NCBI GenBank assembly: GCA_029555025.1
Contig: JAKPTZ010000051.1
Location: forward strand, 62,001-126,000
Reading direction: 5' to 3'
DNA: 64,000 bases
DNA from: Deltaproteobacteria bacterium
GTDB taxonomy: Bacteria > Myxococcota_A > UBA9042 > DTJE01
Position 1 is the stretch's first letter. Each line of letters opens with the position of its first letter. Below, one piece after another: positions 56,722 to 62,055 of the stretch. The notes beneath the pieces are model-generated. The model saw nothing but the letters and a program-made list of their open reading frames with translations, was not told the origin of the DNA and did not search any database. The position numbers and the translations under genes are program-made.

Positions 56722-56750
56722 TTGACATCGGACGGGCTGTAATACATAGT
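56722..56750 (+). promoter_or_regulatory. sigma70 promoter of the metal operon
   Basis: A perfect TTGACA (56722-56727) with a -10 such as CATAGT (56745-56750, 17-base spacer). The -10 lies inside the palindromic operator, so bound repressor would block RNA polymerase. Confidence 0.6.
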
Positions 56751-56756
56751 ATTACA
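56738..56756. promoter_or_regulatory. perfect 19-bp palindromic operator, TGTAATAC-ATA-GTATTACA
   Basis: Two 8-base arms in perfect inverted symmetry around ATA, placed over the -10 of the operon and 24 bases before the RHH regulator start. This fits binding of the dimeric/tetrameric ribbon-helix-helix protein encoded next. The site is found directly in the sequence; the regulator match is inference. Confidence 0.7.
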
Positions 56757-56779
56757 CCACTTCCGGAGGGGACTCCGAC

Positions 56780-57064
56780 ATGGAAAAGTCCGACGTCATC
56801 ACGTTCAAGGTGGATGGCGAACTGAAAGACGCGCTGAACCGAATGAAGAACCGTTCGGAATTCATCAGGTCGGCACTGATGGCGGCTCTGGACGGCACAT
56901 GTCCGCTTTGCCGCGGTTCCGGCACGCTGACGCCACGCCAGATGACCCACTGGCAGAGGTTTTCGATGGCGCACCACATCAGCGAGTGCGGGGAATGCCA
57001 TGGAATCGTGATCGAATGCGGCGATGCGAACGACGACGAATCCTGTATTGGAGGTCACCCGTGA
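56780..57064 (+). CDS. ribbon-helix-helix metal-responsive regulator with Cys/His tail
   Basis: 94 residues. ATG 56780 follows GGAGG. Residues 5-37 are a CopG/NikR-type ribbon-helix-helix (VITFKVDGELKDALN, then NRSEFIRSALMAAL). The rest is a probable metal-binding domain: C41PLC44, H57, H65-H66, C70GEC73H74, C80. CxxC plus CxxCH suggests zinc. It is the first gene of a metal-transport operon, its stop shares a GTGA with the ZnuA-like start, and a perfect palindrome covers its promoter. Together this points to a zinc-sensing self-repressor distinct from Zur (Fur family). It lacks the ACT-like domain of NikR. Binding and metal identity are inferred. Confidence 0.82.
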   Translation: MEKSDVITFKVDGELKDALNRMKNRSEFIRSALMAALDGTCPLCRGSGTLTPRQMTHWQRFSMAHHISECGECHGIVIECGDANDDESCIGGHP

Positions 57065-58146
57065 AAAGGCGGTTTTTTCAGGCCCTGCTGGTGTCAGCGA
57101 TCGTTATGATCCCGGCGTTTTCCCACGCGCTTGAAGGAAGGACCAAGGTTCTTTCGACGACTTTTCCCATCTGGCTGCTTACCGGAATTGTCACCGTCGG
57201 CGATGCCGGGATTTCGAACGACCTGCTCATCGCGCCTTCCATGGGATGTCCGCACGACTACTCGGTCACGCCGAACGACCTTTCCAGGATGGCCGCGGCC
57301 GACGTGATCATCATCAATGGACTTGGAATGGACGATTCGCTGGTTCAGGGCAAGAACCGGGCTTCCGGCGGCAAGGCCGTCGTTATCGATTCTTCCAGCG
57401 GTATCCAGGGCGTCATGGATTACTCACACGGCGAAGGCGCCCGCAAAACCGTCGCCCATCATGACAAGACGGCCGGCGACAAGACTGGACATGAAGGACA
57501 CCACCACGAGGATCATTTTGGCGCCGGGCACCATGAGTGCCCGCATTATGCCGAACACCATGGGAACGACGGCAGGCAGGACGACGCTGCCGGACACGCG
57601 CATGAAGCCGGCCACGTCCACAAGGGAACCAACCCCCACTTGTTCGCAAGCCCTTTGATGGCAGCCAGGATTGCAAGGAACATCGCAAGGGAACTTGGGT
57701 CGATCCGACCTTCGTCAAAGGATCTGTACGAACGAAACGCGACCGCTTTCGAGGCCAGGATGAACAGGCTGACGGCCGATTTCCAGGCAGCCGTCAAAAG
57801 ACTGAAGAACGTAAGGATTGTGACCCAGCACGGGGCCTTCGATTATCTGGCCAGGGACGTCGGGCTGCAGATAACGGCCTTCGTACAGGATCATCCCGGC
57901 TACGAACCGTCGGCCGCCGAGATGCTTGCCCTGACAAAAACCATCCGGGCCGGCGGCGCCGGGGCAATCTTTGTCGAGCCTCAGTACCCGCAGAAGGTTC
58001 CGCGGGCCCTGGCGGCCGAAGCCGGCATTCCGGTCGGACTGCTGGATCCGGTGGCAACCGGGCCGGCCGGGGCCGGAACCGATTATTACGAAAAGGTCAT
58101 GCGGCAGAATATCACCGCGCTGGAGAAGACACTTGGAACCCGCTGA
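57061..58146 (+). CDS. znuA: ZnuA-like zinc-binding protein with His-rich loop
   Basis: 361 residues from GTG 57061. A signal peptide (RFFQALLVSAIVMIPAFSHA) without lipobox, so probably a free periplasmic protein. Cluster A-I binding features: PHDYSVTPNDL (first His), a long His/Asp/Glu-rich loop of about 60 residues (with GHEGHHHEDHFGAGHHECPH in it), NPHLFASP, TQHGAFDYLARDVG (third His) and the C-terminal Asp in LLDPVA. Captures zinc for the ABC transporter. The loop is long, as in high-affinity zinc systems. Manganese cannot be excluded on sequence alone. Confidence 0.87.
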   Translation: MKRRFFQALLVSAIVMIPAFSHALEGRTKVLSTTFPIWLLTGIVTVGDAGISNDLLIAPSMGCPHDYSVTPNDLSRMAAADVIIINGLGMDDSLVQGKNRASGGKAVVIDSSSGIQGVMDYSHGEGARKTVAHHDKTAGDKTGHEGHHHEDHFGAGHHECPHYAEHHGNDGRQDDAAGHAHEAGHVHKGTNPHLFASPLMAARIARNIARELGSIRPSSKDLYERNATAFEARMNRLTADFQAAVKRLKNVRIVTQHGAFDYLARDVGLQITAFVQDHPGYEPSAAEMLALTKTIRAGGAGAIFVEPQYPQKVPRALAAEAGIPVGLLDPVATGPAGAGTDYYEKVMRQNITALEKTLGTR

Positions 58147-58969
58147 ATGCACCGACTGCGGTCAGAAGCGCGGCGACCTCTGCCGCCACGACCCGAAGAC
58201 GACGGCGATCTGCTTTGACGATGTTTCGGTCAACTTCGGCGGCGTCCAGGTTCTTGACTCCGTGACCGCAAGGATCCCGCGTGGCGGCTGCACGTGCATA
58301 GTCGGGCCGAACGGTGCCGGAAAGACCACGCTTCTGATGACCCTGCTTGGAAAGATCAGCCATTCCGGTGCCGTCAGGATCGGCAGCACCCCGGACGGCC
58401 GGGCCGCCAGGGTCGGGTACGTGCCGCAGCGCCTTGCATTTGACCGGGGAATGCCGCTTACGGTGATGGAATTTCTTGCAATGGGTTCACAGCGCAGGCC
58501 CCTGTGGCTCGGAATTTCCAGCGATATCCGAGAACGGGCGACCCGGCTTCTGGAAATGGTCGGGGCGGGCGCTTTGGCCCGGCGCAGAGTCGGGGCTCTC
58601 TCCGGCGGCGAACTGCAAAGAGTCCTGCTTGCACTGGCGTTTCAGCAGGATCCGGATCTGCTGATTCTTGACGAACCGGCCGCCGGCGTGGATTTCAGGG
58701 GAGGCCAGATCTTCTGCGAACTGCTTGAAAACCTGCGGGCCGAGCACGGCTTCACGCAGGTCATGGTAACGCACGACCTGGGCCTTGCCGCAAGCCACGC
58801 AACATACGCCATCCTGTTGAACGGACGCGTTATCGCGGAAGGTAATCCAACTGTAACGCTTAACCCGGAAAATCTTACCCGGGCTTTCGGAACGCATATG
58901 GGCGGGGCCGTCATCGGTCCGCTGTCGCATTCGTGCGGATGTGAAGGAACGGGGGCTGGCAATGCCTGA
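58133..58969 (+). CDS. znuC: ZnuC-like ABC ATPase with N-terminal Cys/His knuckle
   Basis: 278 residues from TTG 58133 after GGAG; no ATG or GTG start upstream of the ATPase core is in frame. ABC motifs: GPNGAGKTTLL (Walker A), LSGGELQRVLLA (signature), LLILDEPAAGVD (Walker B) and the switch His (VTHDLG). The N-terminus carries CTDCGQKRGDLCRH (residues 6-19), a possible small metal site not expected in ZnuC. It overlaps the znuA end by 14 bases. Confidence 0.85.
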   Translation: MEPAECTDCGQKRGDLCRHDPKTTAICFDDVSVNFGGVQVLDSVTARIPRGGCTCIVGPNGAGKTTLLMTLLGKISHSGAVRIGSTPDGRAARVGYVPQRLAFDRGMPLTVMEFLAMGSQRRPLWLGISSDIRERATRLLEMVGAGALARRRVGALSGGELQRVLLALAFQQDPDLLILDEPAAGVDFRGGQIFCELLENLRAEHGFTQVMVTHDLGLAASHATYAILLNGRVIAEGNPTVTLNPENLTRAFGTHMGGAVIGPLSHSCGCEGTGAGNA

Positions 58970-59828
58970 CTTGAGCCCGATTCTTGCCGTCATCGGCGCC
59001 CTGATACCGCTTGAGTGCATGCAGGCCGGCTTCATGCAACGAGCCATGCTGGGACTTCTGCTGCTCGCGCCCATGACTGCTGCCATGGGCGTCCAGGTCA
59101 TCAACCTTCGGATGGCCTTCTTTTCGGACGCGATAAGCCATTCCGCATTCGCCGGGATCGCCCTGGGCGCGCTGTTTTCGGTGCATCCGCACTGGTCTAT
59201 GCCGCTGCTCGGGGTTGCCGTCGGCATCGGAATAGTGGCCATCGGACGACATTCGATGCTGTCGTCGGACACCGTCATCGGTGTGTTCTTCGCGGCGGTC
59301 ACCGCCGGGGGAATCGCGCTTGTCAGCAGGGATCCTTCCCTTGCCAGGGACACCCAGATTTTCCTTTACGGCGACATCCTGACCATCGCGGACGTTGATC
59401 TGCTTCAACTTGGCGGACTTCTGCTCCTGTTTTCGGCTTTCCAGATTCTTGCGTTCAACCGGATTCTTTACATCTGCATCAACCCCGACCTGGCCGAAGT
59501 CCACCGCGTGAAAGTCTGGGCATACCAATACGTGTTCGCGGCGCTCCTGGCGCTTGTCGTCATCTTTTCCGTGTGGGCCATGGGTGTCCTGCTGGTGACC
59601 GCGATGCTCATCGTTCCGGCGGCCACGGCCCGCAACCTTGCAAGGTCAAGCGGAACCATGTTCTGGTGGGCCGTCGGAATCAGCGTTTCTTCGGCTGTCG
59701 GCGGACTGCTGCTTTCCGCGCATCAGTCGATCAGGACGGCAACCGGCGCGACAATCATCCTGATTTCATTTACATGGTTTCTGGTAAGCTTCGTGCCTGT
59801 CGCGCTTCGAAAGGAAAAGGCCCGATGA
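58962..59828 (+). CDS. znuB: ZnuB-like ABC permease
   Basis: 288 residues. ATG 58962 overlaps the ATPase stop by 8 bases (ATGCCTGA). Eight or so membrane helices with the family region VINLRMAFFSDAISHSAFAG, the ATPase-contact site ALGALF. Member of the ABC-3 family that also includes manganese permeases. Forms the channel with the ZnuC-like subunit. Confidence 0.88.
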   Translation: MPDLSPILAVIGALIPLECMQAGFMQRAMLGLLLLAPMTAAMGVQVINLRMAFFSDAISHSAFAGIALGALFSVHPHWSMPLLGVAVGIGIVAIGRHSMLSSDTVIGVFFAAVTAGGIALVSRDPSLARDTQIFLYGDILTIADVDLLQLGGLLLLFSAFQILAFNRILYICINPDLAEVHRVKVWAYQYVFAALLALVVIFSVWAMGVLLVTAMLIVPAATARNLARSSGTMFWWAVGISVSSAVGGLLLSAHQSIRTATGATIILISFTWFLVSFVPVALRKEKAR

Positions 59829-60952
59829 AAGCAAAAGTCCGACCGATCGGAATGCGGTCGTTCATTTTCGAAACACTGTTCCTTGTCGCCACCGTCACCC
59901 TGTTCTTCGCGGGACAGGCGATGGAATCGATGCGGACGCTTTCGCTGATCTTCGCAAGCATCGTCCTGGAGGCCGTGCCATTCATGCTTCTGGGCGCCGT
60001 CGTCGGCGGGCTGCTTGAAACCTTCGTCAGCCGCGAAAGAATCGCGTCGCTGCTTCCCCGTAAACGCTGGAAAACGGTTCTGATTGCGGCCGGCCTGGGG
60101 GTCATCTTCCCGGTGTGCGAATGCGCAATCGTTCCGATTGTCAGAAGGCTCTCAAGAAAGGGCCTGCCGATGGCGGGGGCCGTCGCGTACCTGCTTGGGG
60201 GACCGATCGCGAACCCAATCGTGGCCGGTTCGACGCTGGTCGCATACAAACTGGAATGGCCGATGATGGCGGCAAGATTCATCGGCGGCTACCTGATTGC
60301 GGTTGCCATCGGTCTTGCCATGGATCGCATTTTCAGGAAAAGGCAGGCTTTCGTCGATGACGTCGCGATGCCTGGCGCCGGCGCGGCCGGATGCGCGTGC
60401 GGCCACGACCACGACCACCAGGACGAACACGATGGCGAAAGCGGCCACGAACACGACCATGAGCATGAAGGCGGTCAGACATGCGCCTGCGGCCACCATC
60501 ACGCAGCGCCGAAGGGCCCGCGTTTTATTGACAAAATGCGTGCCGCCATGCTGCACGCGGCCGACGATTTCCTTGGGGTTGGCCATTACCTTGTGATCGG
60601 CGCGTTCATCGCGGCCATTGCCCAGACGTACATCGATCGCACGGTATTCACGCAGATCTTCCAGATTCCGGTTCTTTCGATCCTGATGATGATGGCGCTC
60701 GCGATCCTTTTGAACCTGTGCTCGGAGGCCGACGCATTCATCGCGGCATCCTTCCGTGGAATCATGCCCATGTCGGCGCAACTCGCCTTCCTTCTTACAG
60801 GTCCGATGTTCGACCTCAAACTGCTGCTGATGTACCAGGGACTTTTCCGCAAGAGGGCGATCGCGGCCCTGGCATCCCTGATCCTTGTTTCGGCCGCGCT
60901 TGTCTCGATTGCGGCCCATTACAGCGGCTTCTTCACGAAGGTGATGCCATGA
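59825..60952 (+). CDS. DUF318/YraQ-type permease with His-rich loop
   Basis: 375 residues. ATG 59825 overlaps the preceding stop by 4 bases. Two membrane bundles are joined by a cytoplasmic or periplasmic loop rich in His and Asp/Glu (HDHDHQDEHDGESGHEHDHE and CACGHHH). Signature VFPVCECAIVPIVRRLSRKG with the Cys-Glu-Cys and LLGGPIANPIVAGSTL, typical of the DUF318/ArsP-like group. The family exports or moves metal-related solutes in proposals; the direction is not known. It pairs in many genomes with the next gene. Confidence 0.8.
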   Translation: MKAKVRPIGMRSFIFETLFLVATVTLFFAGQAMESMRTLSLIFASIVLEAVPFMLLGAVVGGLLETFVSRERIASLLPRKRWKTVLIAAGLGVIFPVCECAIVPIVRRLSRKGLPMAGAVAYLLGGPIANPIVAGSTLVAYKLEWPMMAARFIGGYLIAVAIGLAMDRIFRKRQAFVDDVAMPGAGAAGCACGHDHDHQDEHDGESGHEHDHEHEGGQTCACGHHHAAPKGPRFIDKMRAAMLHAADDFLGVGHYLVIGAFIAAIAQTYIDRTVFTQIFQIPVLSILMMMALAILLNLCSEADAFIAASFRGIMPMSAQLAFLLTGPMFDLKLLLMYQGLFRKRAIAALASLILVSAALVSIAAHYSGFFTKVMP

Positions 60953-61965
60953 AGTCGCTGATTGCATTCATCTTCGCGCGTGCCAGAGTCATTGTTTTCT
61001 TCATCTGGGTATATGCCCTGATCGAGCTTCTTCAGGGTGGGCGTTACCTGACCTTCCTGCGACCGGAATTCGGCTATGTGCTTGGCGCGGCGCTTGCCAT
61101 GTTCCTGGCGGTAATGATCGCCGAGATGGGGCGCGAACCGGGCGACCGACTTCACTGGTCGGCCTTCCAGCGCCCACTGATACTGCTGATTCCGCTTCTT
61201 TTCCTGCTGAACGCCCAGGGCGCGTCACTCGACTACTACACTTTCAACAAACGATTCACGGGAACTGCCGGGATGGCGGTCAATGTGGAACCTTCTGACG
61301 ATTCGGGCGTCCCCGCGGGCGGCCGGGCGGCCGTTGACAACGGCCAGGCCGGGGAAGCCGGCACCGTTTCGGCTGACGACGCGGACGTTCCCTCTTCCCT
61401 GAACCCGTCAAAGACCGACCGGATAAGGTTCAGCCGCAAGTGGAACCAGGACGGGACACCGGGCAACGCTTCAGGCACCCCGTCAACCGGATCCGGGACG
61501 GACGTCGAGGCCGGCTCCCAGCCGCCACAGCAGCCACCGCACGAACCTGGCACGCTTCCTGAAGATCAACGCCCGAAGGGCGACAACGACGACGAAGCTG
61601 ACGACGACGGCACGCCGGACGTAATCGAAACGGCCCTGACATCGCTTTACGAGACGCCCAAGCTTTTCGAGGGCAAGCAGGTATCAGTGATTGGCATGGT
61701 CGACACGAACGAAGACATCGCGCGCCAGTTCGGCGACCGGGCAAAAGTCCTCTTCAGGTTCCTGATTTCATGCTGCGCGGCCGATGCCCAGCCGATCGCC
61801 CTGATTTTTGAAACAAAACAGTCCACGACCATCAAGGGTGAAAACGTCTGGATTCGCGTAAGCGGAAAATTCACCCTTCATAAAAAGGACGGCCGCACCA
61901 TCCCCGTGATCCGTGAAGCCTCCTTGAGCACCGTCCCCAGACCGGCGAACGAATACCTCTACTAG
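60949..61965 (+). CDS. DUF1980/TIGR03943-type partner of the permease
   Basis: 338 residues. ATG 60949 overlaps by 4 bases (ATGA). Two or three membrane helices in the first 90 residues, then an Asp/Ser/Pro-rich low-complexity linker (about 105-210) and a C-terminal domain with LFEGKQVSVIGMVDT, VLFRFLISCCAADAQPIALI and GENVWIRVSGKF. This C-terminal domain is the DUF1980 (YcgQ) core. The double Cys (ISCC) may bind metal or be redox active. It acts with the DUF318 permease. Confidence 0.82.
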   Translation: MKSLIAFIFARARVIVFFIWVYALIELLQGGRYLTFLRPEFGYVLGAALAMFLAVMIAEMGREPGDRLHWSAFQRPLILLIPLLFLLNAQGASLDYYTFNKRFTGTAGMAVNVEPSDDSGVPAGGRAAVDNGQAGEAGTVSADDADVPSSLNPSKTDRIRFSRKWNQDGTPGNASGTPSTGSGTDVEAGSQPPQQPPHEPGTLPEDQRPKGDNDDEADDDGTPDVIETALTSLYETPKLFEGKQVSVIGMVDTNEDIARQFGDRAKVLFRFLISCCAADAQPIALIFETKQSTTIKGENVWIRVSGKFTLHKKDGRTIPVIREASLSTVPRPANEYLY

Positions 61966-61967
61966 AC

Positions 61968-62055
61968 CGATGCCTTTACCGATGCCTTTTGACGATGCCT
62001 TTACCGATGCATTTTGCCGATGCATTTACCGATGCCTTCTGACGATCCCTTTCCT
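61968..62055. repeat. 25-bp tandem repeat of two CGATGC half-units
   Basis: Three 25-base units begin at 61968, 61993 and 62018. Each is CGATGCCTTTAC followed by CGATGCCTTTTGA with few changes, and a weaker seventh half-unit follows at 62043. Located directly after the DUF1980 stop. No spacer-type variation, so not a CRISPR. Confidence 0.85.

Follow-up and report, generated by a model that had tools for sequence, protein, structure and literature searches.

The window, the whole 64,000-nt stretch of DNA that was analysed, contains six overlapping open reading frames on the + strand, in the order RHH regulator, znuA, znuC, znuB, ArsP_1/DUF318 and DUF1980. The first gene (56780..57064) encodes a 94-aa protein with a predicted N-terminal ribbon-helix-helix (RHH) region and a Cys/His tail, and a GGAGGG ribosome-binding site, read from the sequence, lies on the same strand at 56765..56770, about 10 nt upstream of the ATG. 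It is followed by the genes of a ZnuA-like substrate-binding protein (57061..58146; GTG start, 4-nt overlap with the RHH gene; PF01297, E=5e-54), a ZnuC-like ATPase (58133..58969; TTG start, 14-nt overlap with znuA), a ZnuB-like permease (58962..59828; 8-nt overlap with znuC; PF00950 (ABC-3), E=1e-53), an ArsP_1/DUF318 permease with a Cys/His-rich loop (59825..60952; 4-nt overlap with znuB; PF03773, E=2e-67) and a DUF1980/TIGR03943 partner protein (60949..61965; 4-nt overlap with the ArsP_1 gene; PF21537, E=3e-19). The six-gene operon with overlaps of 4, 8 or 14 nt, as described in the initial annotation, was verified by these coordinates. The ZnuA, ABC_tran, ABC-3, ArsP_1 and DUF1980_C models of Pfam were each matched above their own cut-off, and the DUF1980 partner also exceeded that of TIGR03943 in NCBIfam (94.3 vs 88.8 bits). 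A substrate-binding protein (PF01297), an ATPase and an ABC-3 permease are present within one unit, as required of a Znu/Azt-type ABC importer. An imperfect tandem repeat of ACCGATGCCTTT units was observed immediately downstream of the last gene (61966-62052).

The substrate of the transporter was inferred from sequence only. In NCBIfam the best models were zinc ones for the substrate-binding protein (AztC/ZnuA) and AztB for the ZnuB permease, all of them below cut-off, and weaker Mn models were also returned. The ZnuA-like protein has a signal peptide and a long His-rich loop, a feature that is usual in zinc-type substrate-binding proteins. The assignment to zinc is based on this loop, together with the matches to AztC/ZnuA and AztB that stay below cut-off. 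The best NCBIfam model for the ArsP_1 permease was that of SO_0444-type Cu/Zn efflux, again below cut-off. The window ZnuC carries an extra N-terminal CTDCGQKRGDLCRH stretch (C..C..C.H; 58133-58195), and its tail contains Cys; the ATPase may in this way have gained a metal-binding part.

A sigma70-type promoter, TTGACA-N17-CATAGT, was predicted on the + strand at 56722..56750 (10/12 consensus positions, weak evidence when taken alone). Its -10 element is overlapped by the predicted operator TGTAATAC-ATA-GTATTACA (56738..56756, no strand), which bears out the perfect 19-bp palindrome claimed for this position: TGTAATACATAGTATTACA is exact at 56738-56756, overlaps CATAGT and is unique in the window and in the genome with up to 3 mismatches. 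The same annotation had described this promoter as the only one; a promoter-like sequence does overlap the palindrome, but its uniqueness is weak by itself (2 promoter-like sites vs 1.6 in shuffles). The length of the palindrome was rejected as evidence, since the 64-kb window contains 7 perfect repeats with 8-bp arms and spacers of 0-6, and a simple expectation is about 7; the one at 56738-56756 is the sole AT-rich one among them. Its significance rests instead on its conservation in relatives. Only 2 sites within 1 mismatch of GTAWTACN3GTAWTAC were found in the window's own genome, compared with 1 for the motif read backwards, so that no large regulon can be claimed there. A one-mismatch operator, GTATTACTTTGTGTTAC, lies about 60 bp upstream of the gene of a secreted 250-aa protein without Pfam match (G000:C34:6384-6400; L081 2885-2901); this is a possible second target of the regulator in this genome.

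No Pfam or NCBIfam model covers the regulator above its cut-off. The Pfam model RHH_1 scored 17.3 bits against a cut-off of 20.5 on the window protein, and it matched 6 of 11 family members, with E values down to 0.0014. The motif TFKxD...NRSxFIRxA fits an RHH protein. Two AlphaFold (AF2) models showed both helices but no N-terminal strand, with low confidence (pLDDT 56 and 67); a PDB fold search with them gave no usable fold match, and they were too poor for the measurement of ligand geometry. The Cys/His residues of the window regulator are C41, C44, H57, H65, C70, C73 and C80. The five cysteines and H65 were invariant in 84 of 84 sequences, and H57 was present in 83. Together the five Cys and two His might build one bridged site, or a sensing site might exist beside a structural knuckle. 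The CPxCxGxG motif weakly resembles the zinc knuckles of DnaJ and anti-TRAP. A CPxCxGxG-like knuckle also occurs in more distantly related RHH proteins (L036-L040; L034 882-1484; L035 6976-7410), of which some are encoded next to ferredoxin-like genes and some have a longer Cys-rich tail; these are probably sister regulator families with other ligands.

The NikR models of Pfam and NCBIfam did not match the regulator, in which the C-terminal ACT-like Ni-binding domain of NikR is not recognised. Neither did PF01475, the Fur family model expected of a Zur, match the RHH protein. The genome of the window encodes a single Fur-family protein, away from the operon, whose sequence looks Fur-like. Thus, there is no obvious separate Zur in this genome.

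About 85 orthologues of the RHH protein were found in several phyla. Profile searches detected them in 27 of 345, 31 of 395 and 19 of 338 sampled genomes of three phyla, with further ones in records of Myxococcota and Candidatus Eisenbacteria. Ten loci with an orthologue came from a scan of genomes; the titles of their records name Victivallaceae, Spirochaeta, Alkalispirochaeta, Deltaproteobacteria, Proteobacteria, Candidatus Eisenbacteria and Myxococcales. Within the window's own phylum strong matches occurred in only 4 of 284 genomes, the window's own included, and the gene was absent from all 12 other members of its own family that were searched. This indicates that the distribution of the gene is patchy, by loss or transfer. 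No homologue was found in a plasmid collection, and in a tree of 86 proteins the sequences were too short to place that of the window.

The gene order is conserved: znuA, znuC or znuB lies directly downstream of the RHH gene in 66 of 76 search loci. At L008 and L012, znuBCA is convergent with the RHH gene, and in an Alkalispirochaeta genome the next gene encodes a PPDK_N-type protein and znu is located elsewhere. PPDK_N-domain proteins of about 900 aa are encoded at three spirochaete loci (L009 9294-12050, L014 9306-12059, L008 6961-9648), either downstream of the RHH gene or divergently from znuA across its operator boxes. Some orthologues have neither an operator nor an adjacent znu gene (L138-L140, L142, L148 and L149, also L032 and L033). 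Genes of a Peripla_BP_2/FecCD-type transporter diverge from an operator-less RHH gene in G562 (L217 6201-8349), and those of a FecCD-type permease and an ATPase diverge from an operator-bearing znuACB operon in G494 (L285 3317-5118).

The absence of the palindrome from relatives that carry this RHH family had been set beforehand as a refutation, and the outcome was the opposite. The window motif was fixed before the relatives were examined, and of the 10 loci found first, 8 gave a score far beyond that of shuffles. With a threshold of at least 12 of 14 positions, and no more than 120 bp from the start, the operator was present before the RHH gene in 70 of 84 loci; in the controls this threshold was reached by 32 of 16800 shuffles (0.2%), by 2 of the 632 other bins of 120 bp and, with the motif read backwards, by none of 84 regions. 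The operator is therefore conserved and tied to the RHH gene, but it is not essentially a 19-bp palindrome: the perfectly palindromic AT form accounts for 14 of 73 sites, and every combination of the two central bases is found (AA 14, AT 14, TA 17, TT 25). This indicates that the unit is an almost symmetric box of 7 bp that recurs after 10 bp, a full palindrome not being required. The operator is better read as two orientation-independent near-palindromic boxes one helical turn apart, GTAWTAC-N3-GTAWTAC, which in the window occupy 56739-56745 and 56749-56755 (centres 10 bp apart). At L008, znuA is preceded by a run of four boxes spaced at 10 bp. Where a sigma70-like promoter of at least 9/12 could be assigned, the operator overlapped it or was placed between -35 and -10 in 30 of 41 loci.

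A search upstream of znu genes in relatives, proposed in the initial annotation, revealed operators before linked and also unlinked znuA genes, as expected for a regulator of zinc uptake. In six genomes (G286, G290, G291, G494, G624 and G737) the operator precedes a znuA that does not adjoin the RHH gene, the distance being about 6 kb in G624 and about 68 kb in G737; the convergent znuA genes of L008 and L012 carry it as well. The best site of the Alkalispirochaeta alkalica genome (G291) precedes an unlinked znuA operon (G291:C57:82316). The operator is missing from the second znuA paralogue in each of G286, G289 and G291.

The exact pattern was present in 31 of 46 RHH-bearing genomes and in none of 24 genomes of the same phyla lacking the gene (70 genomes), and thus depended on the presence of the regulator; the motif read backwards matched 1 and 2 genomes, respectively. 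Presence of the site played no part in the choice of the RHH-bearing genomes, but they were not drawn at random, and in many of these genomes the exact site is that of the RHH promoter itself. Sixteen exact sites were located away from this promoter. Downstream of three of them is znuA (G494, G624, G737), of six a gene for a small secreted or membrane protein that contains HP..H and CxxC, and of two a gene for an outer-membrane-type protein (porin); GPP34-family genes lie about 200 bp downstream of a further three (L288, L290 and L292, in three genomes of one phylum). One exact site, in G032:C47, was discarded as an operator because it lies inside a coding ORF, and was taken as chance. The operator-preceded small proteins, seen in seven genomes (L278, L281, L282, L287, L289, L293 and L069), have HP..H, CxxC and a C-terminal PP; most lack a Pfam match, and one weakly matches DUF2946. 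They are likely zinc-starvation proteins of unknown role.

The coupling of DUF318 and DUF1980 to znu, which had also been pointed out, holds for the transcript unit of the window, but not as a feature of the family. Neither gene was found adjoining the RHH gene at any of the other inspected loci, some stretches of which were short, and for this reason both look like a local addition to the window operon. An ArsP_1 permease gene follows the unlinked operator-bearing znuA of G737, one cluster of this kind, indicating that the link between ArsP and zinc recurs; the next ORF (144 aa) did not match DUF1980. In Bacillus anthracis the ArsP_1 permease BAS1632 belongs to the Zur regulon (PMC6336718) and is likewise controlled by a zinc-uptake regulator, whereas the window ArsP_1 gene shares a transcript unit with znuACB and DUF1980, and its proposed regulator is of the RHH type. 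There is, then, a Zur precedent for a link of DUF318 to zinc control, which is rare in this RHH family.

We propose, with a probability of roughly 0.8, that the first gene of the operon encodes a metal-sensing RHH repressor, most likely corepressed by zinc, that controls the operon it belongs to as well as a regulon for zinc acquisition; the proposal rests on sequence, without data on binding, metal content or expression. The protein would be a dimer, and its C-terminal Cys/His module would bind metal, most likely zinc. When zinc is ample, metal-loaded dimers would lie side by side on the two GTAWTAC boxes over the core promoter, and the transcript of the regulator gene and znuACB-ArsP-DUF1980 would be off. 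When zinc drops, the metal would leave the protein, the repressor would come off the DNA and zinc import would be expressed. In other bacteria the same protein would act in trans on unlinked znuA genes and on other probable zinc-starvation genes. Repression is suggested by the operators that overlap or lie within promoters (the -10 element in the window), and since the operon serves uptake, the simplest model is that, as with Zur, the repressor binds DNA in its metal-loaded state. The binding of the protein to the boxes, the identity of the metal as zinc, its role as corepressor and the zinc dependence of DNA binding are inferred. MetJ/CopG-type RHH dimers bind side by side, and the box array matches that expectation; the two-dimer mode is inferred by analogy with MetJ/CopG/Arc-type repressors. 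Counting against this explanation are the RHH_1 score below cut-off, the low-confidence models, the orthologues without operator or znu and the absence from the 12 own-family members.

One important question is whether zinc is the signal. The regulator and its regulon might be real and the metal Mn, Ni or Co, or the Cys/His residues might hold a structural zinc while another signal is sensed. We regard this as improbable, though it cannot be set aside: such importers transport either Zn or Mn, weaker Mn models were returned, and the DnaJ/anti-TRAP-like knuckle could be only structural. Nevertheless, the best, though sub-threshold, substrate-binding protein and permease models are those of zinc transporters, the substrate-binding protein has its His-rich loop, no NikR-type metal domain supports Ni, and seven near-invariant Cys/His exceed the needs of one four-ligand site. 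It is far less probable that the operator belongs to another, unlinked regulator and that the RHH protein has only a passenger or accessory role in the znu operon. No data place the protein on the site and a few RHH loci lack it, but among the genomes tested exact sites were restricted to those bearing the RHH gene, and the site lies before this gene also at the loci with convergent znu. Antitoxins are common among small CopG/RHH proteins, but that this one should be the antitoxin of a toxin-antitoxin pair, by chance before znu, is barely credible, given the conserved Cys/His residues, the transporters and the lack of a toxin-like partner in the window operon or, as far as recognised, in the inspected neighbourhoods.

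The proposed zinc-responsive repressor resembles several known regulators. Zur (Fur family) likewise acts from an operator over the core promoter to repress znuABC and accessory zinc genes, whether these are linked to it or not; the RHH-type protein differs in lacking the Fur winged helix, in its operator and in its metal ligands. The gene of AdcR (MarR family) lies with those of a zinc ABC importer that AdcR controls, and the same link is proposed for the RHH regulator, but the fold and ligand set of AdcR are unrelated and the RHH regulator is just 94 aa. NikR, a repressor of a metal importer, combines an N-terminal RHH with a C-terminal metal module, an arrangement also predicted for this regulator, as is control of a metal importer; here the module is a Cys/His knuckle instead of an ACT-type domain, and the boxes are 10 bp apart from centre to centre, whereas the half-sites of NikR are widely split. 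Tandem short near-palindromic boxes, with one dimer expected per box, are found with MetJ, Arc and CopG, as in the four boxes of L008, but these repressors have SAM or no ligand and not a metal-binding tail. In a review of zinc regulators those named for import are Zur (Fur family) and AdcR (MarR family), and the words ribbon and CopG are absent from it (PMC6103462). No RHH regulator of zinc uptake was found described in the open full-text papers searched; subscription papers and regulon databases were outside the scope, and an earlier prediction is not excluded.

The initial suggestion that an RHH regulator is a different route to the control of zinc uptake is supported by the conserved site, the sites at unlinked znuA genes and their absence from the 24 genomes without the gene. 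This small protein is very probably an undescribed zinc-uptake switch that does the usual job of Zur, metal and direction being inferred. With rather less assurance than for the repressor itself, we consider it probable that it represents a third, independently evolved class of zinc-uptake repressor, with an RHH fold and a five-Cys two-His module, present in several phyla, where it would take the place of Zur or AdcR in the control of znu as well as of porins and small secreted proteins with CxxC. The regulator is a very small protein in which to study the metal switching of an RHH repressor, and the cultured species Alkalispirochaeta alkalica makes zinc control by an RHH regulator testable. 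The GTAWTAC operator is a ready DNA motif for the annotation of zinc regulons and, if the proposal is true, a widely distributed third architecture would explain the control of zinc in genomes without an obvious Zur.
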